DNA from: a virus
IMG/VR virus record: IMGVR_UViG_3300009420_000076
Location: 1-26,042 of that record
DNA: 26,042 bases
Reading direction: 5' to 3' (one strand)
In this document: one piece after another, positions 8,016-26,042 of the stretch
Numbering within the stretch: the first letter of the stretch is position 1
How the letters are laid out: the number at the start of each line of letters is the position of its first letter
Notes under the pieces: generated by a model
Seen by the model: only the letters and a program-made list of their open reading frames with translations
What the model was told of the DNA's origin: nothing
The model's database searches: none
Made by a program: the position numbers and the translations under genes

Positions 8016-8435
8016 TTATAAAAGACTTTTTATTTTTTGCTTGTTTAATTTGTCATAAAGAACAAGTTTAGCACCAACATGAAGTGGCTTGGGGTATGCA
8101 TCAATTTTAACCCAGCAATACCCTGCACTTTCCCCGTTTAATTTAGGCGTAAATTCATCATCAACGATAATTGCAAAACTGTGATATTTGAAGTCTTTGT
8201 TTTCTATTGTGTAGCAGTTTATTGGAACAATCTTATGGGCGGTAGCATCAATACCAGTCTCTTCCATAATTTCACGGGTAAGGGCTTCTTTATTTGTTTC
8301 GTCTATTTTTTTCTTTCCGCCAAAAAATCCCCAGACTTTATGTCGTGAACGTAATTGTAATAACATTCTACGAGTCTTTGAGGACACGATCATTGCACCT
8401 AGTGCTTCTTTATAAGTAGATTCTCCAGAAGCCAT
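8016..8435 (-). CDS. NUDIX hydrolase
   Basis: This 139-aa protein contains a perfect NUDIX box G-x5-E-x7-RE-I-x-EE-x-G-I: GGKKKIDETNKEALTREIME followed by ETGI. NUDIX enzymes cleave a nucleoside diphosphate linked to another moiety, using Mg bound by the box glutamates. Candidate substrates are oxidised dNTPs, nucleotide sugars or capped nucleotides. The open frame extends upstream to 8594, but that part is the other frame of gp15. The chosen ATG at 8435 (MASGESTYKE) has an SD AAGGAA about 9 nt upstream on the minus strand. It overlaps the 3' end of gp15 by 26 nt, so translation is probably coupled. It is the third gene of the leftward gp14-gp15-NUDIX operon. The substrate cannot be predicted; a nucleotide-sugar role near the glycosyltransferase cassette is possible but speculative. 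Confidence 0.88.
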   Translation of the reverse strand: MASGESTYKEALGAMIVSSKTRRMLLQLRSRHKVWGFFGGKKKIDETNKEALTREIMEETGIDATAHKIVPINCYTIENKDFKYHSFAIIVDDEFTPKLNGESAGYCWVKIDAYPKPLHVGAKLVLYDKLNKQKIKSLL

Positions 8436-9753
8436 CACTATATGTTCCTTGACCGGTAATCGCCCATGTTTGAGTTGTTCCATTGAATGATAATTGTTGG
8501 GTGCTTGCACTATTGTAAACAGTTTCAACACCAGATGTTGTTGCACTTGCATCAAAACTAACTGCCCAGGATGTTGTAAATGTAATAATATCATTTGTAC
8601 TACATGTTAAACCACCCCAATTTGAGTCGTTAGTTACGCCAGCAGATACAAGATATTTTTGTCCACTTACACTGGCTGGTAATGTTCCATCGCCAGGATA
8701 ATTTACACTTGGATCAATATACATGTCTATTGAACCCTGACTATTTGATGGTAAACTGTCTGCATCAGCCGCAAATGCCAATGAATTTGCATCACCAGTA
8801 TCTGTTAAGAGACCAATTATATCGGCAGTATCATCAAGCGGATCTTCACCTACTCTTAATCTAAGTTGACTTGATCCACTAACAAATTTTCCATATTGCT
8901 TTAATACTTCTAACCATGCTAAGGTTGCTCCACCAAGGCTAACTGAGTCTTTTAAAGTAACTCTACCATTTTCATAAGTTATTTGCATGTGTTTGCCAGT
9001 TATAACAGTTGATCCGGCAGGGTAACTTGGTGTTGTTTGATTTGCTTTAAATTCCGCTATTTCTGAACCATCAGCGGCAGCCGCAATACTTGCAATAATA
9101 GTATGAATAAGTTTCTGATGACTAACTTTACTTGGTGCACCTAAGTATATAGGCATTGTATAAGTCAATGTAGAAATATCTATATTTTCTTCTGTTCCAA
9201 CTGGAATGGCATTTGATGACCAACTTATACCAGTCAATTCTACATACGTTAGTGATGCCCAATCAAATACGTTATCATTACTAAGCAAATTAATAGCAGG
9301 ATTGAATAATACTAAAATTTGTTCAAGTATCATCAGTTTTTGTTCTGTGTTACTTGTTGCAATGTCTAAATTCATTGTAAGCAAATATGGGACTGGCATT
9401 AGCCTTTTAATTGCATACCTATTACCAGGTCCGTCTGTATATGTTTGTGTGTCTTCATCAAATTCTTTTTCTATTGCATATACAGTATCTGAACCATGTG
9501 GATTTAACCTATATTCTGCGTTTGGTTGTAAGTCTTGAACATAACATGACATCATTGGAACAGTATTTGCCATATTTTCGGAATTGTTACGAATAATATT
9601 TTGCACCATTCGCGATGATCCACCGTATACTGTAGGAAGTTTTCGCATTACTTGGGTGGCGGCGTCTTCAGATATTTTAACACTAAAAGTACTAAAAATC
9701 GCCATAAATTGTTTTATAAACTTTCGCAGTTGTGCGTCGTACCAATAATCCAT
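8410..9753 (-). CDS. 15: Tail sheath terminator/stabiliser, T4 gp15-like
   Basis: This 447-aa protein matches the gp15 pattern of marine T4-like phages: MDYWYDAQLRKFIKQFMAIF at the N-terminus, KLPTVYGGSSRMVQNIIRNN (38-57), RLMPVPYLLTMNLDIATSN (117-135), TEQKLMILEQILVLFNPAI (136-154) and TLTYTMPIYLGAPSKV (195-210). gp15 caps the last tail tube and sheath ring and joins the tail to the neck. T4 gp15 is only 272 aa. The extra length is a C-terminal domain after about residue 330, with DPSVNYPGDGTLPASVSGQ, KYLV, and a final GFWRIYL, which I recall from cyanophage gp15. Its ATG shares one base with the gp14 stop (TAATG), so translation is coupled. Unlike T4, genes 14 and 15 here are on the strand opposite to genes 13 and 18. 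Confidence 0.88.
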   Translation of the reverse strand: MDYWYDAQLRKFIKQFMAIFSTFSVKISEDAATQVMRKLPTVYGGSSRMVQNIIRNNSENMANTVPMMSCYVQDLQPNAEYRLNPHGSDTVYAIEKEFDEDTQTYTDGPGNRYAIKRLMPVPYLLTMNLDIATSNTEQKLMILEQILVLFNPAINLLSNDNVFDWASLTYVELTGISWSSNAIPVGTEENIDISTLTYTMPIYLGAPSKVSHQKLIHTIIASIAAAADGSEIAEFKANQTTPSYPAGSTVITGKHMQITYENGRVTLKDSVSLGGATLAWLEVLKQYGKFVSGSSQLRLRVGEDPLDDTADIIGLLTDTGDANSLAFAADADSLPSNSQGSIDMYIDPSVNYPGDGTLPASVSGQKYLVSAGVTNDSNWGGLTCSTNDIITFTTSWAVSFDASATTSGVETVYNSASTQQLSFNGTTQTWAITGQGTYSDGFWRIYL

Positions 9754-10730
9754 TATATATCCGTTTTAGGTTTTATAACATTACTAAGTCCTTGGACAGT
9801 CTCAAATGTACTGCCGTCACTATTAGTAATAGTACTATTGTCATTAATATAATCTGATGCAGTAAACATTTCACTTTCTGGACTTGGCGTAGGTGCATTT
9901 ACTTCAATTGGTACCCACACATTTCCTTGCTTTTCATATAATGTTTGTGGATGCATGTCTGTCCGTATAACTCGTGTCCCCTCACCAGCATTTAAAGGGA
10001 ATGTTGTCATTGAATGAATTTTTTGTGTATATGTAGAGTCTACCGGACCGTGTGCCATGCCAGTATATTCCAAATGCCCTGTGTATCGTTTGCCAGTTGG
10101 GTTATCTTCTCTTGCATCTAATACATTTGCTTCAGCAATCGCATCTAAAGTTTCTCTAACACTAACCGCACCATCTTCTTTTTCAAATATATCTCTGTAT
10201 TCTTGTGAATCTGTTAATGGTGTACATTTTACACGCCATAAATGAGGATACCAAGTTGGACTAAACCCTTCTGCTGGTCTATTTCCTTCTTGCACTACAT
10301 AAAACTTTTTAATTGGATCAGCGTCAGCATCTAATCCATATTCTTCAATTAAATGTGGTAATTCTAATACATCACCCGTCATTAATTTACGTTCCATAAG
10401 ATCAACCATATTTGATAAATGGAATGTAATAAAAAGTGTATCACCGGTTAAAAATATGCCAAACTGAGTAAGATCAAAGTCAGAATCTTGTACTTGATAT
10501 GATCCTCTTAGTTCATATACTTCATCCGTGTATTTTCTAGTTCTATTTTCTTGGAAAAGAACATCTTGAATGGTGAGCTCACCAGCACCTTCTTCGTCAA
10601 TTGTTTCTGGACCAATATATTTGTGAACAAATATTCCAGTACCGCCCATTTCAAACTGTTCTTGTGCGGCTCTATCAAAATATTTAAAATCGTTTGATTT
10701 ATTTGGTCGCCATAAACTAATTCTAGGCAT
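9753..10730 (-). CDS. 14: Neck protein, T4 gp14-like
   Basis: This 325-aa protein is the first gene of the leftward operon. It has a clear minus-strand SD (GGAG, 6 nt before the ATG) and a late promoter octamer 39 nt upstream. The N-terminal region resembles the gp14 neck family of marine T4-like phages: a short aromatic start (ISLWRPNKSNDFKYF), a GTGIFVHKYIGPETI strand pair corresponding to the YYLPRT region, and YELRGSYQVQDSDFDLTQFG, then ITFHLSNM and MTGDVLELPHLIEEYGL, corresponding to the FEGDGDFLSKFGLEI and R..EGDLIYFP regions. gp14 with gp13 forms the neck that joins head and tail and carries the whiskers. T4 gp14 is 256 aa, so this one is somewhat longer. The position next to gp15 supports the call. 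The similarity is recognised by pattern, so confidence is slightly below that for gp15. Confidence 0.78.
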   Translation of the reverse strand: MPRISLWRPNKSNDFKYFDRAAQEQFEMGGTGIFVHKYIGPETIDEEGAGELTIQDVLFQENRTRKYTDEVYELRGSYQVQDSDFDLTQFGIFLTGDTLFITFHLSNMVDLMERKLMTGDVLELPHLIEEYGLDADADPIKKFYVVQEGNRPAEGFSPTWYPHLWRVKCTPLTDSQEYRDIFEKEDGAVSVRETLDAIAEANVLDAREDNPTGKRYTGHLEYTGMAHGPVDSTYTQKIHSMTTFPLNAGEGTRVIRTDMHPQTLYEKQGNVWVPIEVNAPTPSPESEMFTASDYINDNSTITNSDGSTFETVQGLSNVIKPKTDI

Positions 10731-13672: not shown

Positions 13673-13732
13673 ATGATATGTACTGAACAAATTATAAAAG
13701 AAAGATTACATAATACAAAGGATCCGGTATGA
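13673..13732 (+). CDS. Possible 19-aa micro-ORF (coupling or leader peptide)
   Basis: The 57-nt gap between two genes holds an ORF of 19 codons (MICTEQIIKERLHNTKDPV). Its ATG lies 1 nt after the preceding stop (TAATATG), and its TGA overlaps the ATG of the next gene (ATGA). It would connect two genes by an unbroken chain of stop/start contacts. There is no SD of its own, and the downstream gene has its own SD, so chance is quite possible. Confidence 0.2.
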   Translation: MICTEQIIKERLHNTKDPV

Positions 13733-14259
13733 GCAAAGTTACTTTAGGAAATAGATCACCAAGAACATACAAATATAATAGCACAAAAGAATACATAGAC
13801 AAATTTCCATGTGCATATAGGCAATTCAAAGCAGACAGTCATTGTAATGTTATTCATGGTTATAGTTTTACTATGAGATTCTTTTTTGGTTCGGATCAAT
13901 TGGATGTTAGAAATTGGGTTGCTGATTATGGTGGAATGGGAGAACTTAAACAATTTTTAGATGACATGTTCGATCACACATTATTGGTAGCAGAAGATGA
14001 ACCAAAAATGGATCTTTACAAACAACTAGAAGAAGCAGGAATAGCAAAACTTACTATATTGCCAAAACTTGGTTGTGAAGGTCTTTCTTCTATGTTATAC
14101 AAATATATGAACGGAGTATTCATTCCTGATATGTGGGGCAAAGGTGAAGCAGAAAGACTTTGGTGTTATAGAGTAGAAGTACGTGAAACACAAATTAATA
14201 TGGCATGGCGTGAAGGACATAGAGAATGGGGCGAAGACCTATTCAATGTTGATGAATAA
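13729..14259 (+). CDS. 6-pyruvoyl-tetrahydropterin synthase / QueD-like protein with altered zinc site
   Basis: This 176-aa protein has an SD (aaagga, 6 nt). It follows the T-fold QueD/PTPS layout: the active-site Cys39 in DSHCNVIHGYSF, the WVADYGGMGELKQFLDDMFD region matching the GMxxDFxxLK segment, the catalytic pair FDHTLL (Asp82-His83), and the C-terminal VEVRET (Glu153) pterin-binding Glu. QueD makes 6-carboxytetrahydropterin from dihydroneopterin triphosphate on the way to queuosine or to 7-deazaguanine DNA bases. Two of the three usual zinc histidines look changed: the AAH motif reads CAY (Tyr30) and HGH reads HGY (Tyr45). HGY may be normal for marine phage members, but Tyr30 is odd. 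It may use metal differently or have lost synthase activity. Confidence 0.75.
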   Translation: MSKVTLGNRSPRTYKYNSTKEYIDKFPCAYRQFKADSHCNVIHGYSFTMRFFFGSDQLDVRNWVADYGGMGELKQFLDDMFDHTLLVAEDEPKMDLYKQLEEAGIAKLTILPKLGCEGLSSMLYKYMNGVFIPDMWGKGEAERLWCYRVEVRETQINMAWREGHREWGEDLFNVDE

Positions 14260-14523: not shown

Positions 14524-15714
14524 ATGGCTAGAGCAAAAACAAGCAATTTACTGAAGCAAGCACCTAAAAAGAAGAAGCGTAAAACACAGGCAGATGTTGA
14601 TGCCCAACATATTGGTTATGAACCAGACTGGCAAGATACTGGCATACAAGAATCAGGTCTGCATAGTAAAATGGCATCCGCACTTAATTATTATGCTTAT
14701 ATTGGTACGCCAAAACTTGCTAAACAGTATTTGATTGATTATGCAGAGCAAATTTTAACTCTTGAAAAGAGTGAACTTAGTAAACTTAGAGCAATTTCAG
14801 ATAGAGATCTTTTACCAACTAAATGTTGGGTAGCACGAATGGTTACATTGGGTGCTGGATTGGAACAACGATATATTGAACATACTAATGAGTATGTTAA
14901 AGACTTGCTTATAATTGGTGAAAATAAAAAAGAAACAAGAGAGAAAAAAGCAAAAGTTAAACAAGCGGCGCCTTCCATATATGACAGAGTAAAAGAACAA
15001 AGTGGTGAGGTTGCGGCTGAATTCGAAATACTTAAAGATTACTATTTCGAAAAGAATACCGCATTTGTAATGGGTATGCAACAACGTAGTTGTTTAGATA
15101 TTATGCGAGAGACTGAAGCAAATCAGGCTCATGTACGTATCATCAAAAGGGACAACGAAGAAGAGTTAGTTGAAATTAATAGTGCTATCAACAAAACAGA
15201 TGAAGATCTTGTTGAAGGGTATTCGTGTTATAGCAAAAAACAACTTGAAGGATATGCAAATTTTTTACAAGATATTATTGATGCTTGTGATATGATTATT
15301 GGTGAGAGCAGGCAAAAACGTCAGCCACGTAAAAAGAAACCAGTAAGTGCTGAGAAAAAAGCGGCTAAAATGAAATTTGCAGAAAAAGATGTAAATGTTA
15401 ATGTTGTTTCAGAATTACCAGTAAACATTGTTGACTCGACAGTAACATTTGTGTATAATAAAAAGACACGCAAATTAGGTGCGTATATTGCTGATGACAC
15501 TTCAGGATTAGATGTTAAAGGACAAAAAATTCTTAATTATAATCCAACCAATAGTGTAGCAAAAACACTTAGAAAACCAAAAGAGCAACTAAAAAACGTA
15601 CTTATTTCACGTTCAAAAGCTCTTAAGTTTTTTGAGAATAATATTAAAACTACAGCAATTAAACTTAATGGTGCAATGAACCAGCACTGGATTATTGTAA
15701 AAACTTATAAATAG
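14524..15714 (+). CDS. Conserved-type phage protein, 396 aa, unknown function
   Basis: This gene has its own sigma70 promoter and an SD (ggag, 6 nt). The N-terminus is strongly basic (KQAPKKKKRKTQADVD). Residues 45-100 are helical with many Tyr/Leu (MASALNYYAYIGTPKLAKQY). A middle Lys/Glu-rich helical region (residues 130-290) has a second basic patch (RQKRQPRKKKP). The C-terminal domain (about 300-396) is beta-rich (VTFVYNKKTRKLGAYIADD, then GLDVKGQKILNYNPTNSVAK, then NQHWIIVKTYK). I recall similar C-terminal domains in hypothetical proteins of marine T4-like phages, but I know of no function. The basic segments suggest nucleic acid contact. The late promoter for the next operon overlaps its last codons. 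Confidence 0.72.
   Translation: MARAKTSNLLKQAPKKKKRKTQADVDAQHIGYEPDWQDTGIQESGLHSKMASALNYYAYIGTPKLAKQYLIDYAEQILTLEKSELSKLRAISDRDLLPTKCWVARMVTLGAGLEQRYIEHTNEYVKDLLIIGENKKETREKKAKVKQAAPSIYDRVKEQSGEVAAEFEILKDYYFEKNTAFVMGMQQRSCLDIMRETEANQAHVRIIKRDNEEELVEINSAINKTDEDLVEGYSCYSKKQLEGYANFLQDIIDACDMIIGESRQKRQPRKKKPVSAEKKAAKMKFAEKDVNVNVVSELPVNIVDSTVTFVYNKKTRKLGAYIADDTSGLDVKGQKILNYNPTNSVAKTLRKPKEQLKNVLISRSKALKFFENNIKTTAIKLNGAMNQHWIIVKTYK
15706..15713 (+). promoter_or_regulatory. T4-type late promoter TATAAATA
   Basis: An exact TATAAATA overlaps the last codons of the 396-aa gene and sits 58 nt before the ATG of the acidic protein. It most likely drives the operon of acidic protein, gp13, heme oxygenase, bilin reductase and dNMP kinase. 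Confidence 0.6.
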
Positions 15715-15770: not shown

Positions 15771-16103
15771 ATGTCAGGAGAACTTTTAAGGTCTTATATT
15801 GATTTGCTTGATGAGAAAAATGATGATACGAGTGTAAAGGTTAGACGTGAAGTCACCGAAGCATTTGGTACATTTTCCTCACAGTACAATCTTGATGGTA
15901 TTAAAGAGCAAGTTATGGATCTCGTTAATGCTGAGATAGACCGTCAGGTAACTGAAGAAGTGGACGAAGAAGTAACCGAAGAAACTGATGAAGTTACAGA
16001 AGATGACGAAGAGCAAGTTGATGAAGCATCTGATGAAGATTCAGATGATGACGAACTAAAAGAAGAAGATTCGGACGAAGAAGAAGAAACAGACGACAAC
16101 TAA
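15771..16103 (+). CDS. Small acidic protein, possibly prohead-core (gp67)-like
   Basis: This 110-aa protein has a strong SD (aggag, 8 nt). Residues 1-62 are helical (MSGELLRSYIDLLDEKNDDT, then VRREVTEAFGTFSSQYNLDG). From about 62 to the end the sequence is almost all Glu, Asp, Thr and Val (EEVTEETDEVTEDDEEQ and similar), low complexity and presumably disordered. A short helical head followed by an extremely acidic tail is the composition of T4 gp67, a prohead core protein, and of other capsid-scaffold or DNA-mimic proteins. There is no sequence-level proof, and the neighbour is a neck gene rather than the portal/scaffold cluster. The late promoter supports a virion-assembly role. Confidence 0.6.
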   Translation: MSGELLRSYIDLLDEKNDDTSVKVRREVTEAFGTFSSQYNLDGIKEQVMDLVNAEIDRQVTEEVDEEVTEETDEVTEDDEEQVDEASDEDSDDDELKEEDSDEEEETDDN

Positions 16104-16114
16104 GGAATTAACAA

Positions 16115-16855
16115 TTGGCTAATAATCGTCAAGAGCTTTCAAAAGAAGTAGAACTTATGCTTGGCGGAGGAATGGTTGATGTAGAGCTTGATCCTGAACA
16201 TTATGAACTTAGTGTTCAGAAAGCCTTAGATAAATTCCGTCAACGGTCTGATTCCGCGGTTGAAGAATCATTTATGGTTTTAAATTTAAATGAAAACCAA
16301 AATGAATACGTTTTACCGGATATCGTTATCGATGTTAGGGATATTTACAGGCGCAGTTCGGGTCAGTCAATGGACACAGGTCCAAACTTCGAACCTTTTG
16401 AAGCAGGATATCTTAATACGTACATGTTACATCACGCAAGGTCTAGTGGTCTATTAACCTTTGAATTATATTCAGGGTTTGTAGAGTCATTAGGTAAGAT
16501 GTTGGGTTATGAGTACATATTTCAATATAGACGGCACAATCATACAATTATAATTAATCGACGTATTAAAAGTGATACAGAAGTATACTTACATGTATAC
16601 AACTATATGCCTGATGATATATTGGTTAAAGACACTTATACAGGACCGTGGCTAAGACAATGGGCATTAGCAGAAGCAAAACTAATGTTAGGTCAAGCAC
16701 GGTCAAAATTTGGACAAATTACAGGTCCACAAGGTGGTACAACACTTAACGGTGATGCTATCAAAACCGAAGCCCAAACCGAAATGCAAGCCTTAGAAGA
16801 AGAACTCAAAACATATACGGCTGGCAATTCAGGTCTTGGAGTATTAATAGGCTAA
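16115..16855 (+). CDS. 13: Neck protein, T4 gp13-like (TTG start)
   Basis: This 246-aa protein uses a TTG start at 16115, supported by an SD (aagga, 8 nt). The next ATG, at codon 15, has no comparable SD. The N-terminal helix region (NRQELSKEVELMLGGGMVDV, then ELDPEHYELSVQKALDKFRQ) matches the gp13 pattern of marine T4-like phages, in which a residue set like LI.YCLRRLG.P...ID.DQ..DRI..AL.F.. occurs. The C-terminal part, WALAEAKLMLGQARSKFG, then GGTTLNGDAIKTEAQTEM and LEEELKTY, matches the conserved end (K..WG..L.KFGG...PGG..L.G....EA..E...LE.EL). gp13 joins head and tail at the neck with gp14. It is unusual that gene 13 lies on the plus strand, over 5 kb from genes 14 and 15 on the minus strand. 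Confidence 0.78.
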   Translation: MANNRQELSKEVELMLGGGMVDVELDPEHYELSVQKALDKFRQRSDSAVEESFMVLNLNENQNEYVLPDIVIDVRDIYRRSSGQSMDTGPNFEPFEAGYLNTYMLHHARSSGLLTFELYSGFVESLGKMLGYEYIFQYRRHNHTIIINRRIKSDTEVYLHVYNYMPDDILVKDTYTGPWLRQWALAEAKLMLGQARSKFGQITGPQGGTTLNGDAIKTEAQTEMQALEEELKTYTAGNSGLGVLIG

Positions 16856-16869
16856 CCCATAAACTTTAT

Positions 16870-17412
16870 ATGTCAAAAACACTTAAAGAACTCACCTGGG
16901 AACAACACAAAAACGCTGAAAGACAATGGTTTGCAAAACAGATGATAACCGGTAGGATTGAACCATCTGTTTATCACAGATATTTGGTTAATCAATATGC
17001 TTGTTATGATGCATTAGAATCAAATTATGGCGTTCCCATTAAAGAAGTTGCTAGAACAAAAGCAATTATGCAAGATATCGAATATTTTACACCAGATGAA
17101 TTTGAATTATATCCAAGTGTACAAAAATATGTTGAACATGTTACTAATGGTTTAACAGATGCTCAACATGCTGGTCATGTATATGTACGATACATGGGAG
17201 ATTTGAGTGGCGGGCAAATGATATCAAGTAAAGTGCCTGGTCCAGGATATTATTATAAATTTAATAAACCAACAGATGAATTAAAACAAACTATTAGAGA
17301 TTATATAGCAAGTTTTGATCAAGAAGAAGTAGCAAACGAAGCAAAAGTTGTTTTTGATTTTGCTACAGCATTATTTGAAGACATAGAAAAAGATGTCAAC
17401 AGCAATATTTGA
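16870..17412 (+). CDS. ho1: Heme oxygenase (biliverdin-producing)
   Basis: This 180-aa protein has the two signatures of HO-1-type heme oxygenase: the proximal helix LTWEQHKNAERQ with His13 as heme ligand, and the distal helix YVRYMGDLSGGQ (residues 105-116), whose glycines let O2 bind. The middle segment, YLVNQYACYDALE, also fits the family. It cleaves heme to biliverdin IX-alpha, Fe2+ and CO using O2 and reductant, usually reduced ferredoxin. At 180 aa it is shorter than typical bacterial and cyanobacterial forms (about 210-240). It lies 14 nt after gp13, has no clear SD, and overlaps the bilin reductase gene by 20 nt, so the two enzymes are made together. The product biliverdin is the substrate of the next enzyme. 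The family call is firm. Confidence 0.93.
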   Translation: MSKTLKELTWEQHKNAERQWFAKQMITGRIEPSVYHRYLVNQYACYDALESNYGVPIKEVARTKAIMQDIEYFTPDEFELYPSVQKYVEHVTNGLTDAQHAGHVYVRYMGDLSGGQMISSKVPGPGYYYKFNKPTDELKQTIRDYIASFDQEEVANEAKVVFDFATALFEDIEKDVNSNI

Positions 17413-18070
17413 CGCATTTGCTAAATGCGAAGAAGCACTACTAAGTCATTTAAAAATTACTGGGTCACCAGTTGATGATTATCATGATTGGCCATGGCGC
17501 AATTATGTATTTGAATCAGGATTTTATCGCAGAGCTCATTTAGATGCAGTACAAACAGATGATTTATACATGTTTCATTTGTGTGTATTCCCCCATGTAT
17601 ATAATCCAGCACCAATTTTTGGTGTAGATGTTATTGCTGGTAAAAAAATTGTTAGTGGTGCATTTCATGATTTTAGTAAAGCCGGTGATGACCAACATTA
17701 TATGATGCAGTGGTTTCAAAATAAAGTAGAACCATATGAATGGTCAAATACACGAGAATTACCGGAATGGGCACAAAATATATTCAGTCCTGGTATGATA
17801 GCAGTTAGTAGAACAAAAAATGAATCAGATTATATAAATTTTGTTGAACTTGCTCAAGACACTTTAGTATATTATTTGTCAGAACTAGAACATACAAATG
17901 ATGAACTAATATTTAGAGATGAGCCATTAAGTGATTATACAAAGGCTCAAAATTGGTATTGCTTTAACCAGAAGCAAAACCCTCACACTCCACGGGTAAT
18001 GGGTAATTTTTGTGACAGTGAAGAAACTGTTCATAAATTTATTCATGAATGTCTATTTCCAGAAATATGA
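17393..18070 (+). CDS. pcyX: Ferredoxin-dependent bilin reductase, PcyX-like
   Basis: This 225-aa protein carries the FDBR family core: WPWRNYVFES (34-42), YRRAHLDAVQ (45-54), LYMFHLCVFPHVYNPAPIFG (58-77), VDVIAGKKIVSGAFHDFS (78-95) and RELPEWAQNIFSPGMIAV (121-138). His62 and Asp79 correspond to the PcyA His88/Asp105 proton-relay residues. Asp51 stands where PcyA has Glu76, which is a feature against a plain PcyA. FDBRs reduce biliverdin in two-electron steps with reduced ferredoxin. Phage classes are PebS (cyanophages) and PcyX (marine phages thought to infect alphaproteobacteria), both reported to make phycoerythrobilin. The overall resemblance and the ho neighbour suit PcyX, but PebS cannot be excluded without an alignment. 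It overlaps heme oxygenase by 20 nt and the dNMP kinase gene by 4 nt. Confidence 0.85.
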   Translation: MSTAIFDAFAKCEEALLSHLKITGSPVDDYHDWPWRNYVFESGFYRRAHLDAVQTDDLYMFHLCVFPHVYNPAPIFGVDVIAGKKIVSGAFHDFSKAGDDQHYMMQWFQNKVEPYEWSNTRELPEWAQNIFSPGMIAVSRTKNESDYINFVELAQDTLVYYLSELEHTNDELIFRDEPLSDYTKAQNWYCFNQKQNPHTPRVMGNFCDSEETVHKFIHECLFPEI

Positions 18071-18702
18071 AATCAAAAGTAATTGGTATAGTTGGATTTA
18101 TCGGATCAGGTAAAAATACTGTTGGCCAAATCTTAATAGATGATTTGGAATATGTTGCCGTGAGTTTTGCTGATTCTTTAAAAGATGCTTGTAGTGCAAT
18201 TTTTAATTGGCCACGAGCAATGTTAGAAGGCAATACAGATTTAAGTAGACATTTTAGAGAAAAAGTAGATCCTTGGTGGAGTAAACGATTAGATATTGAA
18301 GAATTTACACCTAGATATGCATTACAATATGTTGGAACAGACGTAATGCGTAATCATTTTCATAAAGATATTTGGCTTGCTTGTGTTGAGCGAAAAGTTG
18401 AACATTTACTTGAAAATAACAAAAAAATTGTCATAACTGATGTTCGTTTTAAAAATGAAGTTGACTTGATTCAACAATTAAACGGAGAAATATGGCATGT
18501 ACAACGAGAAAATCCTAAATGGTATGCTGAATTTTTAACAATGGAAAATAAAACTTTGGCTGAAAAGGAAGCATTTTTAGTTAATTTAGGAGCCCACCCA
18601 TCTGAATATGATTGGCTTATTACTTCAAAGTTTGATCATATTATTCAAAATACTGGAAACTTAGACCAACTAAGACAGTCTTTACTATTTATCGCAAAAT
18701 AA
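18067..18702 (+). CDS. 1: Deoxynucleoside monophosphate kinase, T4 gp1-like
   Basis: This 211-aa protein (T4 gp1 is 241) has a P-loop GFIGSGKNTV (residues 10-19) in the GK-(D/N)-T form of dNMP kinases. It is followed by VSFADSLKDACSAIFNWPRA, then LEGNTDLSRHFREKVDPWWS, a segment typical of this family, then FTPRYALQYVGTDVMR and VITDVRFKNEVDLI. It phosphorylates dGMP, dTMP and modified dCMP to diphosphates for phage DNA synthesis, accepting modified pyrimidines in T4. An in-frame ATG at 18049 would add six residues, but the ATG at 18067 gives the common ATGA overlap with the bilin reductase stop and begins right at the first beta strand. It is the last gene of the late operon. Confidence 0.9.
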   Translation: MKSKVIGIVGFIGSGKNTVGQILIDDLEYVAVSFADSLKDACSAIFNWPRAMLEGNTDLSRHFREKVDPWWSKRLDIEEFTPRYALQYVGTDVMRNHFHKDIWLACVERKVEHLLENNKKIVITDVRFKNEVDLIQQLNGEIWHVQRENPKWYAEFLTMENKTLAEKEAFLVNLGAHPSEYDWLITSKFDHIIQNTGNLDQLRQSLLFIAK

Positions 18703-18795: not shown

Positions 18796-21700
18796 ATGGC
18801 AACACTAGTATCCCCAGGAGTGGCAGTATCAGTTACTGATGAAAGTTTTTACGTTTCAGCAGGTGGCGGAACTGTTCCACTTATTGTAGTTGCAACTGGC
18901 CAAGATAAATTAAATGCGGCCGGTGACGCAACAGCAACAGGCACAATGAAGACAAACGCTAACAAACCGTATATTGTTACATCACAAAGAGAACTGTCAA
19001 ACACATTTGGAAGTCCTTCGTTTCAAACAATTTCAGGGACAGTTCAACAAGGTTCAGAAGTTAATGAATATGGGCTTTTAGCCGCTTATTCATTTTTAGG
19101 TGCGGCAAACCGTACAATAGTTATTAGGGCAGATGTAGATTTAAATGCATTGACTGCCAGCAATACTTCTCCAGCAGGTGCACCGGCAAGTGGTGCTTTA
19201 TGGTTCGATACTACTAATACCGTTGTTGGTATTAGCGAACTTAACTCAGCAGGCGCATGGGTTGCACAAACAGTACTATTTCCTAAAAGTACTGACGTTA
19301 ATGGCACAGGATTAACCTCATATCCAGATGGTACATTTGGAACATTAGGTGCTTATGCTATTGTAACTATTGATCAAGCGGGTGTTACACTGAGCTCAAT
19401 GAGCGTTTACAAGAAAATGTCCAACAACAGTTGGGTTAAAGTTACTAGAACAAATATGTCAGGCAATGTTTTTGCCCTTCCACATACAAATGTTCCTGAT
19501 TCTCCACAAACAGGGGATATTTGGTTTAAAACAACATCTCCATTAAACGGAACTGATTTAAGCATTAAAAAATTCTCTGCAAGTACTGGCAGTTATACTG
19601 ATCAAAATGTTAAATTTTATGCGTCAGATGCTGAAGCGGCATCTCCAGGTGAATTTGGCAATGGTACAAAAGCAAAAGTTGAACCAGTATTAAATGCAGT
19701 TGTTTCCAACATTACAGTTGTTAATGGTGGATCGGGGTATACGGCCGTTCCTACTGTTACAATCACAGGTGGTGGTGGTTCAGGCGGAGCCGCATCAGCC
19801 GCAATTGATGGTAATGTTTCATCAATTACAGTTGATACAGGCGGATCAGGCTATGCCAGCACACCAACAATATCCATTGTTGGCGGAAATAATAATGCTA
19901 CAGCAACAGGAATTATGGACGGTACACTAACATCAGTAAACTTAATTACTACAGGTGCAGGATACACATCCGCACCGACTGTTTCTATTGCTGGTGGTGG
20001 TGCTGGTGCAAGTGGTGCAACAGTTTCCGCAAATATTTCCGGTTATTTAAATGCAGTCAATTTGGTTGACGCTGGTGAATATTCCAGTGTACCTTCAGTT
20101 ATTATTTCAGGTGGTGGCTCGTCAAGTCATGCACAAGCAACCGCAGTACTGAATGGTGCAGTAACATCAGTAGATGTTACAGTTGGAGCATCAGGCCCAA
20201 ATTCAGGTACAAATTATCAATATCCACCAACAGTTACTCTTGCTGGTACTAACCAATCGGCAAGTGCTCAAGCAAACGTAGAAGGTGGTATTATTTCTTT
20301 TGATATTACAAATCAAGGCACAGGCTTTGCCTCGGCGCCAACTATTACAATCACAAGTCCAGCAGGATCAGGTGCAGTAGCAACTGGTAATATTGTTGGT
20401 GGTGTTGCATCAGTTGTTGTGCAGGATGCAGGTTCAGGTTATACTGCTCCTCCAACAGTTGTTATCAACCCAGCATTAGGTGATGAAATTATTAGTGCGG
20501 CAGTTGTTGAAGCAAAACTTGATGCAGTTTTAGATTCAGTAACAGTCGATACAAAAGGTGCATACGAATATAAACCAACTGTAACGATTGTTCGTGGTGC
20601 AGGCGACAATATTGGCGCAGGTGCTACAGTTAATACAGTTATTAAGGCTCCAATCGGTGCAATTACAGTAACAGATGGTGGTGGTGGTTTTGCAATAACA
20701 TTACCAACTGTTGAAATTACTCCACCAGCAGGTGGTGTTGCTGAAATTGCGGCTACTGCAAAAGCTCATTTAGGGCGAACAGTTACTGGTGTTACAGTTA
20801 CAACTGGTGGTTCCGGTTATCAAAGAGCTCCAAGTTTACAATTAGAAGTTAATCCAGGTACAGGATCAGTTGCATTTGGTGCTGGTGGTGGTGATAATGT
20901 TCCATCAGCCTTATCAGCAACAGTCCAAGGTCCAGTTAGTGCAGTTAATGTGGCTCAACGAGGACGTGGTTTTAGTAGTCCTCCATCAATTACTATTGTT
21001 CCAGCCGCAGGCGACAATCCATCAGTTGGTGCCGCCGCATCATCAATTATTAAAGGTGATATTGAAACGGCCGCTATTAGTGTAGGTGGAACAGGATATA
21101 TTGATCCAGATAACGTAGCAGTAGCAGCAACAGGTGCTAACGCAACTGGTACAAACTTTGCTTCAACTGTTTCAATTAACAGATACGTTGAAGCCGTTAA
21201 CATAACAAATCCTGGTAAAGGTTATAATACAGGTGGTGCTGTAACAGTTCAAGTTTCAGGTGGTTCGACTCCTGCTACTGGTACAGTAACATTTACAAAA
21301 GTTTTAGATGATGTAGTTCTTACAGCATTAGGCCATGGTTTTAAAAATGCTATTACTGCTAGTGAAGTAACAGTTTCGTTCACAGGCGGTCAAGCCGGTG
21401 GCGCCACATATCAAGGTGATGCTGACGTTACATTTACTGGTGTATTAGAGCATGTTGAAGTAACAAATAACGGTAGTAATTATGATAATGGTCAACCCGT
21501 TACAGTTGCATTCACTGCTGATGGTGGTGATACAAATGCAGTTGTTCCAACTGCTACAGCAAGACTTGGTTATGGTGCTGGTGCAACCGCTAATGCATTC
21601 TTAAACGGTGCAATTACTGGTGTTACTGTAAGTAACGGCGGTTCAGCATATAGAGTTACTTCACATTATACACATTCAACACAAGGTAACTCATCGACAG

Positions 21701-24700
21701 CGGCGGTAGTTTCTAGTGAACCAGCAGTAGTATTAGGTGCTCCAGACATTGCAAACTTAAATTCAAGTGGTCCAAGTAGTGGTGCTGGAACAATACAAGC
21801 AGTTGGTGAAGTTAAACTTAATGGTGCCGCATTATCAGGTACATTTGTTAATGGTGAGAGCTATACAACAAGTAATGGTTTATTAATTACTAATGGTGGT
21901 ACTGGTTACGGCGCAGGTACAACACTTACAATTTCCGCACCAGATGAAGGTGGCGGAACACAAATGACTGTTTCTAGTGTAACAGTTGTTGGTGGTGTTA
22001 TTAAAGCCGTTGTGCTATCAAATGAAGGCGCAGGTTACTGGAGAACACCAACTATCACAATTACAAACGATGGTGGTGCCGCTTCGGCCGCACAATTTGA
22101 TTTAATACTTGAAGGTGCAGTTGCCGCAATTGATGTAACAAATGCAGGTACAGGTTATAGTGATAATCCAGCAATTTCTTTAACAGGTGGTAATGGTTCA
22201 AGTTTTGCCGCAACAACCGCAATTTCGGGTATTTTAGACAGTATTGCAGTTACGGCAGCCGGACAATATTATAGTGTAACACCATCAGTTACAGTTGCTA
22301 CTAACACAGGTATTGCAACTGCGACAGTTACAAATAATGCAATTACAGCAATAGTACTTGCTGATCCAAACTCAGCAACAGCCTATACGTCACGGCCTGT
22401 TATAGTTGTTGTTTCAGCAAATGGTGACGAGGTAACTGGTATTGATATTGTTACAAGAGGTTCGGCAATGACTGTTGCACCAACAGTAGCAATCAACGGT
22501 ACATTAACAAGTGGTTCAGATAATGCAACTGCAACGGCCCATTTAAGTAGGGCAATTAGTGGTATTGTATTTGACGAAGCAAATAATGGATTTGCCCGCG
22601 GTGCTGAATATATTAGTATACCTAACATGGTATTAAGTGCAACAAACGTAGCAAATCTTGATGCACTTGTTATGACATATACTGGTAGTGATGGTTATAC
22701 ACCAGCAGTTGCGTCACCAACAAGTACAGTTGCATTAACAGATGGTATTTTATCCGTTACAGTTACAGCTCAAGGTTCAGGTTATCCATTGCCAACATAT
22801 ACTGGTACAGTATTAAACAATATTGCCGCAGTAATTACAGGTGGTACAGGAAATGCTAATTTTCAACTTGCAACTGCAACACCAGAAGTAAGTGGTACTA
22901 TTACAGACATTGTTGTTACAAATAAAGGTGATGTTGATCCAGCAAACGATACAGGTTATCAACATCCAGTAGCATTTGCGGTAACATATACAGATAGAGC
23001 AAATGATCCGGTAAGAGTGGGTGGTGATACAGACGCGACCGTAACTGGAACATTAAATGGTTTCTTAAGTTCAATAACAGTTGATACAGCAGGCGCAGGC
23101 TATGGTGAAGCACCTAGTGCAACCGTTGCCGCTCCAGACTTACAACTTAACACCACTGCAAGTGGTACAGCAACCGTTGATATTAATGGTGCAATTACAA
23201 GTATATCATTAACTAACAACCAAACATTAACAACTGGTAGTGGTAGAGTTGTTGCATCAGATATTAGTATTGATGGTAGCAATCAATTAACAAGTCCAGG
23301 TGCATTAGATACAAACGTAAATGTTACAATGGAACATGTTAATAATGGTGGTAATACAAATCCAAGTAATTATGCTACATTTAATATTACAAGTGATAAC
23401 TTTGTATATAAAATTGAACTTGATAATGATAGTGGTGGTACATATCAAGATGGTAAACCAGCAATTGGCTTTGTTTACACATCGGGTGGTGCCGGCGTTG
23501 TAGCAGGTTCGTCATATGAAGGTGAATTGACAAGTATTACAGTAAGTTCACCAGGTAATAATTACCAAACAGTACCAACCGTACAAATTGTAAGACATGG
23601 TAGTGATACCCTTACTACAGATGGTGCGGCTACTGCAAATATTATTGGTGCTATTGCTTCATTTAACGTATCAGCCGCAGGTTCAGGATACAACCAAACT
23701 CCAACAGTTCAGTTGGTTGGTAATACCAGTGCAAGTGCTTACGCAACAATTACTGGTGTATTAGATAGTGTTACAGTATCACAATCAGGTTCAGGTTATA
23801 CTGATGCTAGAAATATTTCGGTTAGTATTTTGGGTGGCAATAATGATGCTACTGCCGAAGCAAAAATTAATGGTAAGGTTACTGGCGTTTCAGTTCTTAA
23901 TGGTGGCTCAAATTATCAGAATACGCCAACAGTAACACTAACAGGTGGTGGTGCTGATGTATCGGCTCAAGTTATTGCCGCAATCAAAGGCCCATTATCA
24001 AGTGTAACAGTTGATCCTAATAATAAAGGTTCAGGTTACACGAGTGCACCAACAATCAGTTTCACAGGTGGTGGTCAAACAGTACCAGCAAGTGCAACAG
24101 GTACAATTAGTGCAAGTGTTACAGGATTTACGATTGTTAATGCCGGAACAGGTTTTACAGCAACACCAACAGTAACATTAAGTGGCGGCGGTGCAAGTTC
24201 ACAAGCAACTGCAACGGCCGGTATTAATGTTGTTCTTAGTAGCATTACAATAGGTGCTGGTGGAACGGGTTATACATCCATTCCAACAGTTTCAGTATCA
24301 GGTGGTAATCCAACAACTCCTGCAACTGCAACGGCTGTTATTAACAGTTTTGTAAGTGGTATTACAGTTACAACAGGCGGAACAGGATATGTAAATATAC
24401 CAACCATTACAGTTAGTGGTGGTAATGGTACAGGTGCTACAGCAACCGCAACAAACAATATTTCCGATGTTGCATCGTTTACTATTGTTGATCCAGGCAG
24501 TGGTTATGTTGCCGTTCCAACAATCACACTTAGTGGTGGTGGAGTAACTAACAGAACTGCAACTGCTGAAATTGAAGCAGGAAAAGTTGTAGCAGTAACA
24601 TTAGGTGGAACACCAGATACAGCCTTAACAGGTGGTGTAAGTGCTTCAGTACTTGGTGGTGGTATGCCAACAAGTGGATCAATTTATGCTAGAGTAGTTC

Positions 24701-26042
24701 CAGAAGAAGCAAGTTTTGCATTACGTTCATTTGATGGAATTTCAGCAGCCAGTCAGGCTATTACAACTGGTCCTAGTGCAAATGAATTGTCTGCATCCTC
24801 CACAGGTGCACCGGGTACAAACCCAGATGGTACATTGTGGTATGATGGTAACATTACATTAGACTTATATAAACAATCTGCAGGACGATGGGTGCCACAA
24901 GCAGTTTCAAAATTTGGAACATCTGCACCGTCTGCTCCAGCAGGAGGAGATGTTTGGGTTGATACAACAGACCTAGATAGTTTTCCATTAATTAAAGAGT
25001 ATGTAAGCAATGTATGGGTAACTAGAGATAATACAGATCAAAGCACACCAAATGGTGTTGTATTTGCTGACTTAACATCAACAGCGGCTGACCAAACTAA
25101 CAATGGTGGTGCAACTGGTGTAGATAGTAATGCTCCAGATCCAGTATTATACCCAGGTGGTACATTGTCCGTTAACTTAATTCATTCAGGATTGGTTGTT
25201 AAAGAATACAATGCGGCCAATGCGGGTGCATTTAAATGGCGTTCAGCAAGTGGTACAAAAGCAAACGGCGCAGGTAATTTTGGTCGTAATGCTCAACGTG
25301 CAGTAGTTGTTAAGAAGATGCAAGCGGCATTAGTAGCAACTAATTTAAGAGCTGAAACATTAACATATAACTTGATTGCATCTCCTGGTTATCCAGAATG
25401 TGCAGACGAGATGTTAGCATTGAGTGTAGATAGAAAAGAAACTGCATTCTGTGTTATAGATACACCATTTAGATTAGCACCAACAGGGGTAACTGCATAT
25501 ATGGCAGGAACTGGTGGAAGTGAAAACGGTGAAGATGCCCTTATTACTAAAGATAGTAAAATGGCAGTTTACTACCCCCCAGGGTATTCAACAAATACCG
25601 ATGGTTCAACAGTTGTTGTTCCTCCAAGTCATATTGCACTTAGAACTTATGCTGTTAATGACCAAATTGCATTTCCGTGGTTTGCACCAGCAGGTTTAAC
25701 AAGAGGTGTTGTTTCCAATGCAACTAATGTAGGCTACATTGACGATGAAAACGAATTTGTAGCAGTAGCATTGAACCAAGGTCAAAGAGACACACTTTAT
25801 GCAAACAAAGTTAATCCAATCGTTAACTTCCCAGGACAAGGTTTAATTGTTTTCGGTCAGAAAACATTAAGTCCTGCAGAAAGTGCATTGGATAGAGTTA
25901 ATGTTGCGAGACTTGTAGTTTATATCAGAGAAAGACTCGAGTCACTAGCAAGACCATTTGCTTTTGAGCCAAATGATGAATTAACTCGTGCAAATGCAAG
26001 AAATGCTGTTGAGAGATTCTTAGCAGACATTTACGCAAAACG
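18796..26042 (+). CDS. 18: Giant tail sheath protein, T4 gp18-like, with repeat insertion (3' truncated by window)
   Basis: I read the frame codon by codon from the ATG at 18796 to the window end and found no stop: 2,415 codons, and the gene continues. T4 gp18 has 659 residues. The SD is ggag, 9 nt upstream. The N-terminus MATLVSPGVAVSVTDESFYV and the segment EYGLLAAYSFLGAANRTIVI (residues 90-109) are typical of phage sheaths. Residues 124-277 hold two PxxGxLWxDT units. Residues 296-1935 are about 40 GSGY-type repeats. Two more LW units follow (about 2001-2082), then the conserved core and C-terminal region (AVVVKKMQAAL, RLAPTGVTAYMAG, YYPPGYST, IAFPWFAPAGLTRGVV, VNPIVNFPGQGLIVFGQKTL, LVVYIRERLESLARPFAFEP). 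The sheath contracts to drive the tube into the host. The insertion probably projects from the sheath surface. Confidence 0.92.
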   Translation, partial: MATLVSPGVAVSVTDESFYVSAGGGTVPLIVVATGQDKLNAAGDATATGTMKTNANKPYIVTSQRELSNTFGSPSFQTISGTVQQGSEVNEYGLLAAYSFLGAANRTIVIRADVDLNALTASNTSPAGAPASGALWFDTTNTVVGISELNSAGAWVAQTVLFPKSTDVNGTGLTSYPDGTFGTLGAYAIVTIDQAGVTLSSMSVYKKMSNNSWVKVTRTNMSGNVFALPHTNVPDSPQTGDIWFKTTSPLNGTDLSIKKFSASTGSYTDQNVKFYASDAEAASPGEFGNGTKAKVEPVLNAVVSNITVVNGGSGYTAVPTVTITGGGGSGGAASAAIDGNVSSITVDTGGSGYASTPTISIVGGNNNATATGIMDGTLTSVNLITTGAGYTSAPTVSIAGGGAGASGATVSANISGYLNAVNLVDAGEYSSVPSVIISGGGSSSHAQATAVLNGAVTSVDVTVGASGPNSGTNYQYPPTVTLAGTNQSASAQANVEGGIISFDITNQGTGFASAPTITITSPAGSGAVATGNIVGGVASVVVQDAGSGYTAPPTVVINPALGDEIISAAVVEAKLDAVLDSVTVDTKGAYEYKPTVTIVRGAGDNIGAGATVNTVIKAPIGAITVTDGGGGFAITLPTVEITPPAGGVAEIAATAKAHLGRTVTGVTVTTGGSGYQRAPSLQLEVNPGTGSVAFGAGGGDNVPSALSATVQGPVSAVNVAQRGRGFSSPPSITIVPAAGDNPSVGAAASSIIKGDIETAAISVGGTGYIDPDNVAVAATGANATGTNFASTVSINRYVEAVNITNPGKGYNTGGAVTVQVSGGSTPATGTVTFTKVLDDVVLTALGHGFKNAITASEVTVSFTGGQAGGATYQGDADVTFTGVLEHVEVTNNGSNYDNGQPVTVAFTADGGDTNAVVPTATARLGYGAGATANAFLNGAITGVTVSNGGSAYRVTSHYTHSTQGNSSTAAVVSSEPAVVLGAPDIANLNSSGPSSGAGTIQAVGEVKLNGAALSGTFVNGESYTTSNGLLITNGGTGYGAGTTLTISAPDEGGGTQMTVSSVTVVGGVIKAVVLSNEGAGYWRTPTITITNDGGAASAAQFDLILEGAVAAIDVTNAGTGYSDNPAISLTGGNGSSFAATTAISGILDSIAVTAAGQYYSVTPSVTVATNTGIATATVTNNAITAIVLADPNSATAYTSRPVIVVVSANGDEVTGIDIVTRGSAMTVAPTVAINGTLTSGSDNATATAHLSRAISGIVFDEANNGFARGAEYISIPNMVLSATNVANLDALVMTYTGSDGYTPAVASPTSTVALTDGILSVTVTAQGSGYPLPTYTGTVLNNIAAVITGGTGNANFQLATATPEVSGTITDIVVTNKGDVDPANDTGYQHPVAFAVTYTDRANDPVRVGGDTDATVTGTLNGFLSSITVDTAGAGYGEAPSATVAAPDLQLNTTASGTATVDINGAITSISLTNNQTLTTGSGRVVASDISIDGSNQLTSPGALDTNVNVTMEHVNNGGNTNPSNYATFNITSDNFVYKIELDNDSGGTYQDGKPAIGFVYTSGGAGVVAGSSYEGELTSITVSSPGNNYQTVPTVQIVRHGSDTLTTDGAATANIIGAIASFNVSAAGSGYNQTPTVQLVGNTSASAYATITGVLDSVTVSQSGSGYTDARNISVSILGGNNDATAEAKINGKVTGVSVLNGGSNYQNTPTVTLTGGGADVSAQVIAAIKGPLSSVTVDPNNKGSGYTSAPTISFTGGGQTVPASATGTISASVTGFTIVNAGTGFTATPTVTLSGGGASSQATATAGINVVLSSITIGAGGTGYTSIPTVSVSGGNPTTPATATAVINSFVSGITVTTGGTGYVNIPTITVSGGNGTGATATATNNISDVASFTIVDPGSGYVAVPTITLSGGGVTNRTATAEIEAGKVVAVTLGGTPDTALTGGVSASVLGGGMPTSGSIYARVVPEEASFALRSFDGISAASQAITTGPSANELSASSTGAPGTNPDGTLWYDGNITLDLYKQSAGRWVPQAVSKFGTSAPSAPAGGDVWVDTTDLDSFPLIKEYVSNVWVTRDNTDQSTPNGVVFADLTSTAADQTNNGGATGVDSNAPDPVLYPGGTLSVNLIHSGLVVKEYNAANAGAFKWRSASGTKANGAGNFGRNAQRAVVVKKMQAALVATNLRAETLTYNLIASPGYPECADEMLALSVDRKETAFCVIDTPFRLAPTGVTAYMAGTGGSENGEDALITKDSKMAVYYPPGYSTNTDGSTVVVPPSHIALRTYAVNDQIAFPWFAPAGLTRGVVSNATNVGYIDDENEFVAVALNQGQRDTLYANKVNPIVNFPGQGLIVFGQKTLSPAESALDRVNVARLVVYIRERLESLARPFAFEPNDELTRANARNAVERFLADIYAK
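19165..19626 (+). repeat. Two PxxGxLWxDT units in the N-terminal part of the sheath
   Basis: Unit 1 (19165-19284) reads SPAGAPASGALWFDTT, ending AGAWVAQTVLFP. Unit 2 (19489-19626) reads VPDSPQTGDIWFKTT, ending GSYTDQNVKFYAS. Both are about 40-45 residues of the same small beta fold and mirror the two units after the repeat block (24796-25041). Confidence 0.6.
19681..24600 (+). repeat. About 40 degenerate protein repeats (~41 aa, ~122 bp) inside the sheath gene
   Basis: The coding repeat unit is roughly a V..SVTVTNGGSGYT segment, followed by xxPTVTIxGGGG and ATATAxVxG. Well-preserved GSGY-type cores lie near 19729, 19840, 19951, 20434, 20806, 21895, 22027, 22147, 22777, 23086, 23677, 23788, 24028, 24259, 24379 and 24493. 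Diverged ones lie between (for example GRGF near 20963, GKGY near 21217, GNNY near 23545). Spacing is mostly 111-130 nt. I saw no Cys and a single Trp (near 22045) in the whole block. The copies are diverged in DNA, so this is an old or fast-evolving array, not a recent duplication. Confidence 0.85.
24796..25041 (+). repeat. Two PxxGxLWxDT units after the repeat block of the sheath
   Basis: Unit 3 (24796-24918) reads GAPGTNPDGTLWYDG, ending AGRWVPQAVSKFG. Unit 4 (24919-25041) reads SAPSAPAGGDVWVDTTDLDS, ending VSNVWVTRDNTDQ. They match the units at 19165-19626, so the GSGY array sits between two pairs of the same domain. Confidence 0.6.

Follow-up and report, generated by a model that had tools for sequence, protein, structure and literature searches.

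A predicted heme oxygenase and PcyX-type bilin reductase gene pair between the neck and dNMP kinase genes of a PA5oct-like marine phage

Organization of the locus

The window, i.e., the whole stretch of 26,042 nt analyzed here (positions 1 to 26,042 of IMG/VR virus record IMGVR_UViG_3300009420_000076), harbors putative genes for a heme oxygenase (HO) and a ferredoxin-dependent bilin reductase (FDBR), located between a neck gene and a dNMP kinase gene. The features relevant to this locus and its surroundings are:

8410..9753, minus strand: tail sheath stabilizer (phrog_11196, 5e-81; phrog_227, 3.9e-23; 33-35% to PA5oct and Atu_ph07)
9753..10730, minus strand: virion structural protein (phrog_11591, 2.2e-71; 37-38% to PA5oct-type phages)
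14524..15714, plus strand: phrog_11903 protein, homologue of PA5oct EST35_0192 (1.6e-47; 33% to PA5oct)
15706..15713, plus strand: TATAAATA, possible T4-type late promoter element (exact match, position)
15771..16103, plus strand: short acidic ORF opening the gene run that ends in the kinase (ORF list)
16115..16855, plus strand: neck/head-tail adaptor protein, gp13-like (phrog_211, 2.7e-34)
16870..17412, plus strand: ho, putative heme oxygenase, 180 aa (ORF list; PF01126)
17393..18070, plus strand: pcyX-type putative ferredoxin-dependent bilin reductase, 225 aa (PF05996; 5owg; tree; residues; model)
18067..18702, plus strand: dNMP kinase, T4 gene 1-like (PF21448, 1.1e-17; phrog_139, 6e-47)
18796..26040, plus strand: tail sheath gene, open at the window end (47% to the PA5oct sheath over 428 aa of the C-terminal part)

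The ORFs of ho and pcyX, both on the plus strand, overlap by 20 nt, and a gap of 14 nt separates the stop of the neck gene from the start of ho. While the longest kinase ORF begins at 18049, the sequence pointed to 18067 as its likely start, which forms an ATGA overlap with the pcyX stop, so that ho, pcyX, and the kinase gene follow each other as consecutive overlaps. The overlapping gene pair described in an earlier sequence-only reading agrees with both the ORFs and the Pfam matches, and its location between neck and dNMP kinase genes was confirmed by the matches to phrog_211, PF21448, and phrog_139. The same reading had placed a late promoter upstream. An exact TATAAATA was indeed detected 65 nt 5' of the gene at 15771, which is kept in six contigs of the window's clade together with a spacing of 64-65 nt, but occurrences of this motif in the window do not exceed chance (2 found, 3.7 expected). 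From its position only, late expression of ho-pcyX may be inferred.

Heme oxygenase and bilin reductase

The deduced product of ho matched the Pfam family Heme_oxygenase (PF01126) with an E value of 6e-21 (75.6 bits, cut-off 23). H13 corresponds to the proximal histidine, the distal stretch GDLSGG is retained, and H13, D111, G114, and G115 are invariant across 28 sequences. Its AlphaFold model (pLDDT 94.3) displays the all-helical HO fold, and Foldseek matched it to HO-1, HO-2, and HmuO with a TM-score of up to 0.89 by query length. Based on profile, residues, and fold alike, it is assigned to the HO-1/HmuO family.

For the reductase, the match to Fe_bilin_red (PF05996) reached an E value of 1.4e-19 (71.1 bits, cut-off 31), and its closest relative in the PDB was PcyX_EBK42635 (5owg; E 2.7e-40), with PcyA at 4.5e-11. 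Foldseek assigned the AlphaFold model (pLDDT 92.5) to PcyA and PcyX with E values of 7e-14 to 7e-11. The equivalents of PcyA residues H88, D105, and N219 are present as H62, D79, and N196, while Asp occupies the position of E76 and Pro that of D220. According to the HMMER alignment, both substitutions also appear in the solved, phycoerythrobilin (PEB)-making PcyX_EBK42635, and Asp and Pro at these positions are invariant in 38 phage relatives; we infer that E76D and D220P are product determinants. For both genes, dN/dS was low (0.07-0.24 in the window's clade, 0.05-0.22 in its sister clade), which indicates purifying selection. Judged from their sequences, ho and pcyX are real and intact genes with catalytic residues kept, and homology predicts with high confidence that the encoded pair is enzymatically active. 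The families found are thus in line with the previously suggested conversion of heme via biliverdin into a reduced bilin, and a pink pigment is the expected end product of the pair.

A maximum-likelihood tree was calculated for 50 FDBRs (midpoint-rooted drawing with several long branches and without alphaproteobacterial PcyA, for which no reference sequences were found in 397 other Pseudomonadota genomes or in plasmids). The reductase of the window fell inside the PcyX-type clade with a support of 100/97 and outside cyanophage PcyA, Synechocystis PcyA, and PebS/PebA, which bears out its earlier designation as PcyX-type. PebS groups with PebA across a 98/96 branch from it, so that the phylogeny proposed with that designation, comprising PcyA, PebS, PcyX, and PebA references, gave no grouping with PebS. 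Within the PcyX-type clade, the window reductase and clade B (L009-L024, L093) form a separate group (99/96), while PcyX_EBK42635, about 42% identical to the window reductase, is nested in a Mosig-like pelagiphage group and shares 86% identity with Mosig PcyX.

Based on this clade and the two shared substitutions, the predicted product is probably PEB rather than PCB. Less plausibly, the enzyme could be no PEB synthase but an alphaproteobacterial-type PcyA yielding PCB. All three equivalents of H88, D105, and N219 are compatible with such an enzyme, and phage CB_2, with a comparable cassette, encodes an FDBR that proved to be a genuine PcyA (PMC11480375). In addition, alphaproteobacterial PcyA, absent from our tree, has been placed together with phage PcyX in one clade, AX (PMC10151467), so that PEB as the product stays a prediction. 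On the other hand, the change of Glu76 to Asp and of Asp220 to Pro, as in PcyX_EBK42635 and without exception in the 38 phage relatives, as well as the grouping with PcyX in the tree, argue against a PCB-forming enzyme.

Relationship of the carrier phage

The neck protein and the virion proteins encoded on the minus strand revealed their best matches in jumbo phages PA5oct, Atu_ph07, Phosso, and SCTP-2. The neck protein shares 41-44% identity with PA5oct, Atu_ph07, and Phosso, compared to 22% with Mosig, and the dNMP kinase is 43% identical to PA5oct EST35_0194. Moreover, the genes for a NUDIX protein, sheath stabilizer, structural protein, phrog_11903 protein, neck protein, kinase, and sheath share order and strands with PA5oct. 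One difference is the gap between neck and kinase genes, which measures 4 nt in PA5oct and harbors ho-pcyX in the window; neither HO nor FDBR had a match in the PA5oct and Atu_ph07 records. Capsid and portal genes lie outside the window; in sister clade B, a record of 65.7 kb encodes a major capsid protein and a portal protein with 66% and 53% identity to PA5oct, against 33% and 32% to Mosig.

Judged from gene relatedness and synteny of this 26 kb fragment, the carrier is related to jumbo phages PA5oct and Atu_ph07, an identity that the sequence-only reading had missed; a T4-like or pelagiphage type of virus does not agree with virion genes and synteny. A pelagiphage carrier, suggested by the nearest annotated HO and PcyX (Mosig), was rejected, as the tested virion genes were PA5oct-like. 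Named phages with the most similar virion genes have heterotrophic hosts, e.g., Pseudomonas, Agrobacterium, and Sinorhizobium.

Apart from the gene pair, the fragment displayed further features. The sheath ORF (18796-26040) encodes more than 2415 aa, with phrog_10581 matches at both ends and about 1700 aa of glycine-rich repeats between them, compared to 879 aa for the PA5oct sheath. Two tandem carbamoyltransferase genes of the NodU/CmcH type (3980-5767 and 5771-7609) adjoin the tail fiber region, and a gene for a QueD-like 6-pyruvoyl-tetrahydropterin synthase (13729-14259) is possibly linked to deazaguanine DNA modification.

Cargo site and block exchange

Among the relatives kept from the scan, those with a neck protein of about 50-54% identity carried neither HO nor PcyX in the stretch examined. 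In some of them neck, kinase, and sheath genes follow in a row, and others harbor a different gene at this spot; in L099-L171, the commonest occupant is a gene for some 210 aa that matches no Pfam family. Because the genes found there differ in this way, the spot between neck and kinase genes that holds ho-pcyX is likely a cargo site.

Comparison of the window with L005 revealed 97-99% identity in the neck gene and 94-99% from about position 18000 on, while identity dropped to 78-91% in ho-pcyX. Accordingly, dS was 0.07 for the neck gene, 0.65 for HO, and 0.45 for PcyX. Since the drop is confined to ho-pcyX, the simplest reading is replacement of the pair by recombination, so that close relatives appear to exchange it as a block.

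The gene pair in other loci

In nearly all compared loci, HO was found together with PcyX, with overlapping ORFs in many of them. The order in clade B is neck, 2OG-Fe(II) oxygenase, HO, PcyX, often another 2OG-like gene, and sheath. A third group of about 30 contigs displayed Hsp20, ClpS, HO, and PcyX in this order, in some contigs with DnaK, GroES, an IMPDH-family enzyme, or a tryptophan-halogenase-like gene nearby. ClpS and Hsp20 directly 5' of HO-PcyX were seen in L030-L060 and L094, which represent a different phage group; overall, ClpS was detected in 31 of the 44 searched records, and in none from clades A (that of the window) and B or from Mosig. In L044, L046, L047, L049, and likely L042, the tryptophan-halogenase-like gene (about 500 aa) lies between HO and PcyX. 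The Mosig locus has ferrochelatase and 2OG oxygenases upstream and neck genes downstream, with a ferredoxin gene elsewhere in the genome, and two records among the relatives encode AlaS (5-aminolevulinate synthase). One phage record of 118 kb (L027/G015) carries two PcyX-type reductases, one (L080:13029-13718) without an adjoining HO and the second (L081:19116 to L082:301) within a DnaK-Hsp20-ClpS-HO-PcyX run.

A genome scan for cellular PcyX yielded only two MAG contigs, L093 and L094, assigned to a marine gammaproteobacterium and a Halobacteroidaceae bacterium. As both carry HO-PcyX loci and displayed a phage-like gene order, they are probably misbinned phage contigs.

Genes for photosynthesis and bilin acceptors were searched in the window and related records, mostly fragments, with at least one control genome positive each time. 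Neither the window nor any of 47 related records contained psbA (photosystem II D1; 0/48), which extends the earlier observation that the window lacks photosynthesis genes, and PHY (phytochrome), CpeT, and the phycobilisome family were each absent from 44 related records. Given that these records are mostly fragments, the absence of both gene types is only suggestive. A ferredoxin gene, which the sequence-only reading had proposed to look for, was found in none of the fragments of the window's clade, and Fer2 was present only in Mosig among the records searched.

Comparison with known cassettes

Descriptions of PcyX and the hemO-pcyX pair date from 2016 and 2018 (Ledermann, as cited in PMC6755814 and PMC11480375), so the pair in ocean phages is already known, and what is new here is the type of carrier phage and the insertion spot. 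A full-text search of partial coverage for jumbo phages together with heme oxygenase returned nothing relevant, which does not prove priority, and neither a marine jumbo phage survey nor a 2026 jumbo phage review mentions heme or bilins.

The pelagiphage hemO-pcyX pairs (isolate Mosig EXVC030M; metagenomic EBK42635) encode the same enzymes in the same order with overlapping ORFs (14 nt in Mosig, 20 nt in the window), adjoin neck gene(s), and are likewise without detected photosynthesis genes. In contrast, HO and PcyX of the window are only about 40% identical to theirs and fall into a separate tree clade; the Mosig pair precedes the neck genes, while that of the window follows the neck gene and precedes the kinase gene, and the fragment contains neither ferrochelatase nor alaS. 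Marine and freshwater phages also carry hemO-pcyA/X-alaS cassettes, in part on contigs whose gp13 groups with pelagiphages, and the joint presence of the catabolic enzymes has been called enigmatic (PMC11480375). These share HO and a PcyA/X-type FDBR as cargo, but no alaS was detected in the window or in the other records searched from clades A and B; cassettes lacking alaS have been published. As freshwater phage CB_2 shows with its PcyA, an FDBR cassette outside pelagiphages was already known. Cyanophage PebS, or PcyA with ho1, shares the pathway and the general fold with the window pair, but belongs to another FDBR subfamily, and neither psbA, located near the ho gene in P-SSM2, nor cpeT, located beside pcyA in P-SSM7, was found in the window's group.

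Possible role in infection

Tentatively, we propose that ho and pcyX form a two-gene cargo between the neck and dNMP kinase genes of a marine PA5oct-like jumbo myophage, probably transcribed late in infection as part of an mRNA that also covers virion genes. HO would open host heme, yielding biliverdin IX-alpha, Fe(II), and CO, and PcyX would take electrons from a ferredoxin, probably that of the host, to reduce biliverdin by four electrons, most likely to PEB via 15,16-dihydrobiliverdin. The gene overlap would coordinate both enzymes, and biliverdin would thus be withdrawn from the oxygenase. The advantage would most likely be heme turnover in an infected heterotroph and not light harvesting: Fe(II) would be freed for non-heme iron enzymes, heme would be cleared, and a radical-scavenging reduced bilin would remain.

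This light-independent use of Fe(II) and the bilin is the role we prefer, and we consider it possible at best. It would fit with the 2OG-Fe(II) oxygenase genes adjoining the pair in clade B and Mosig and with Hsp20 and ClpS adjoining it in about 30 other contigs. However, marine phages frequently encode 2OG oxygenases, and the position of these genes next to the pair may reflect this background. Furthermore, release of iron needs HO alone, no ferredoxin gene was found in the fragments of the window's clade, and relatives with 5-aminolevulinate synthase or ferrochelatase make more heme, leaving no net iron.

Since a reductase for a four-electron step is strictly retained, the bilin itself seems to matter. 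Although somewhat unlikely, it might be the selected product, which a bilin-binding protein of the host (bacteriophytochrome, globin, or other) would take up as chromophore or ligand, with consequences for host signaling or metabolism. PcyX is under strong constraint, and alaS or ferrochelatase in relatives would meet a demand for tetrapyrrole, for which reason we rank a bilin signal close behind the heme/iron role. In Bradyrhizobium ORS278, a hemO-pcyA-alaS island adjoins a phytochrome gene, and bilin-binding globins lie beside FDBR genes in non-photosynthetic bacteria (PMC11480375, PMC10151467). Genes for phytochrome, CpeT, or phycobilisome-family proteins, on the other hand, occurred in none of the 44 phage records.

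A contribution to light harvesting in cyanobacterial hosts, the role put forward for PebS and PcyA of cyanophages, is very improbable. Cyanophages typically carry HO and FDBR genes, and in a cyanobacterium expressing PcyX, PEB was made and entered phycobilisomes (PMC13197396); nevertheless, such photosynthesis cargo is disfavored by the separation from cyanophage PcyA and PebS in the tree, by the lack of psbA (0/48), CpeT, and phycobilisome-family genes (0/44 each), and by the heterotrophic hosts of the nearest named phages. We give just as little credence to a recently acquired chance passenger without benefit and heading for loss: although only the small clade of the window harbors the pair among the compared neck relatives, such a reading is already disfavored by purifying selection, by the intact active sites, and by the persistence of the pair in several phage lineages and gene neighborhoods.

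Returning to the light-independent role, a separate PcyX-type clade may have become established, as horizontally exchanged late-operon cargo, in PA5oct-like marine jumbo phages with heterotrophic hosts, where the bilin or its by-products would serve infection, a reading we put forward with reserve. The heme-to-bilin pair occurs in several neighborhoods and in at least two phage lineages lacking photosynthesis genes, and this recurrence together with the apparent block swapping argues for a real, general benefit unrelated to photosynthesis. The question is thus sharpened to what bilins do for phages without photosynthesis genes, and relatives of the PA5oct type in which the site of ho-pcyX is unoccupied provide natural controls.
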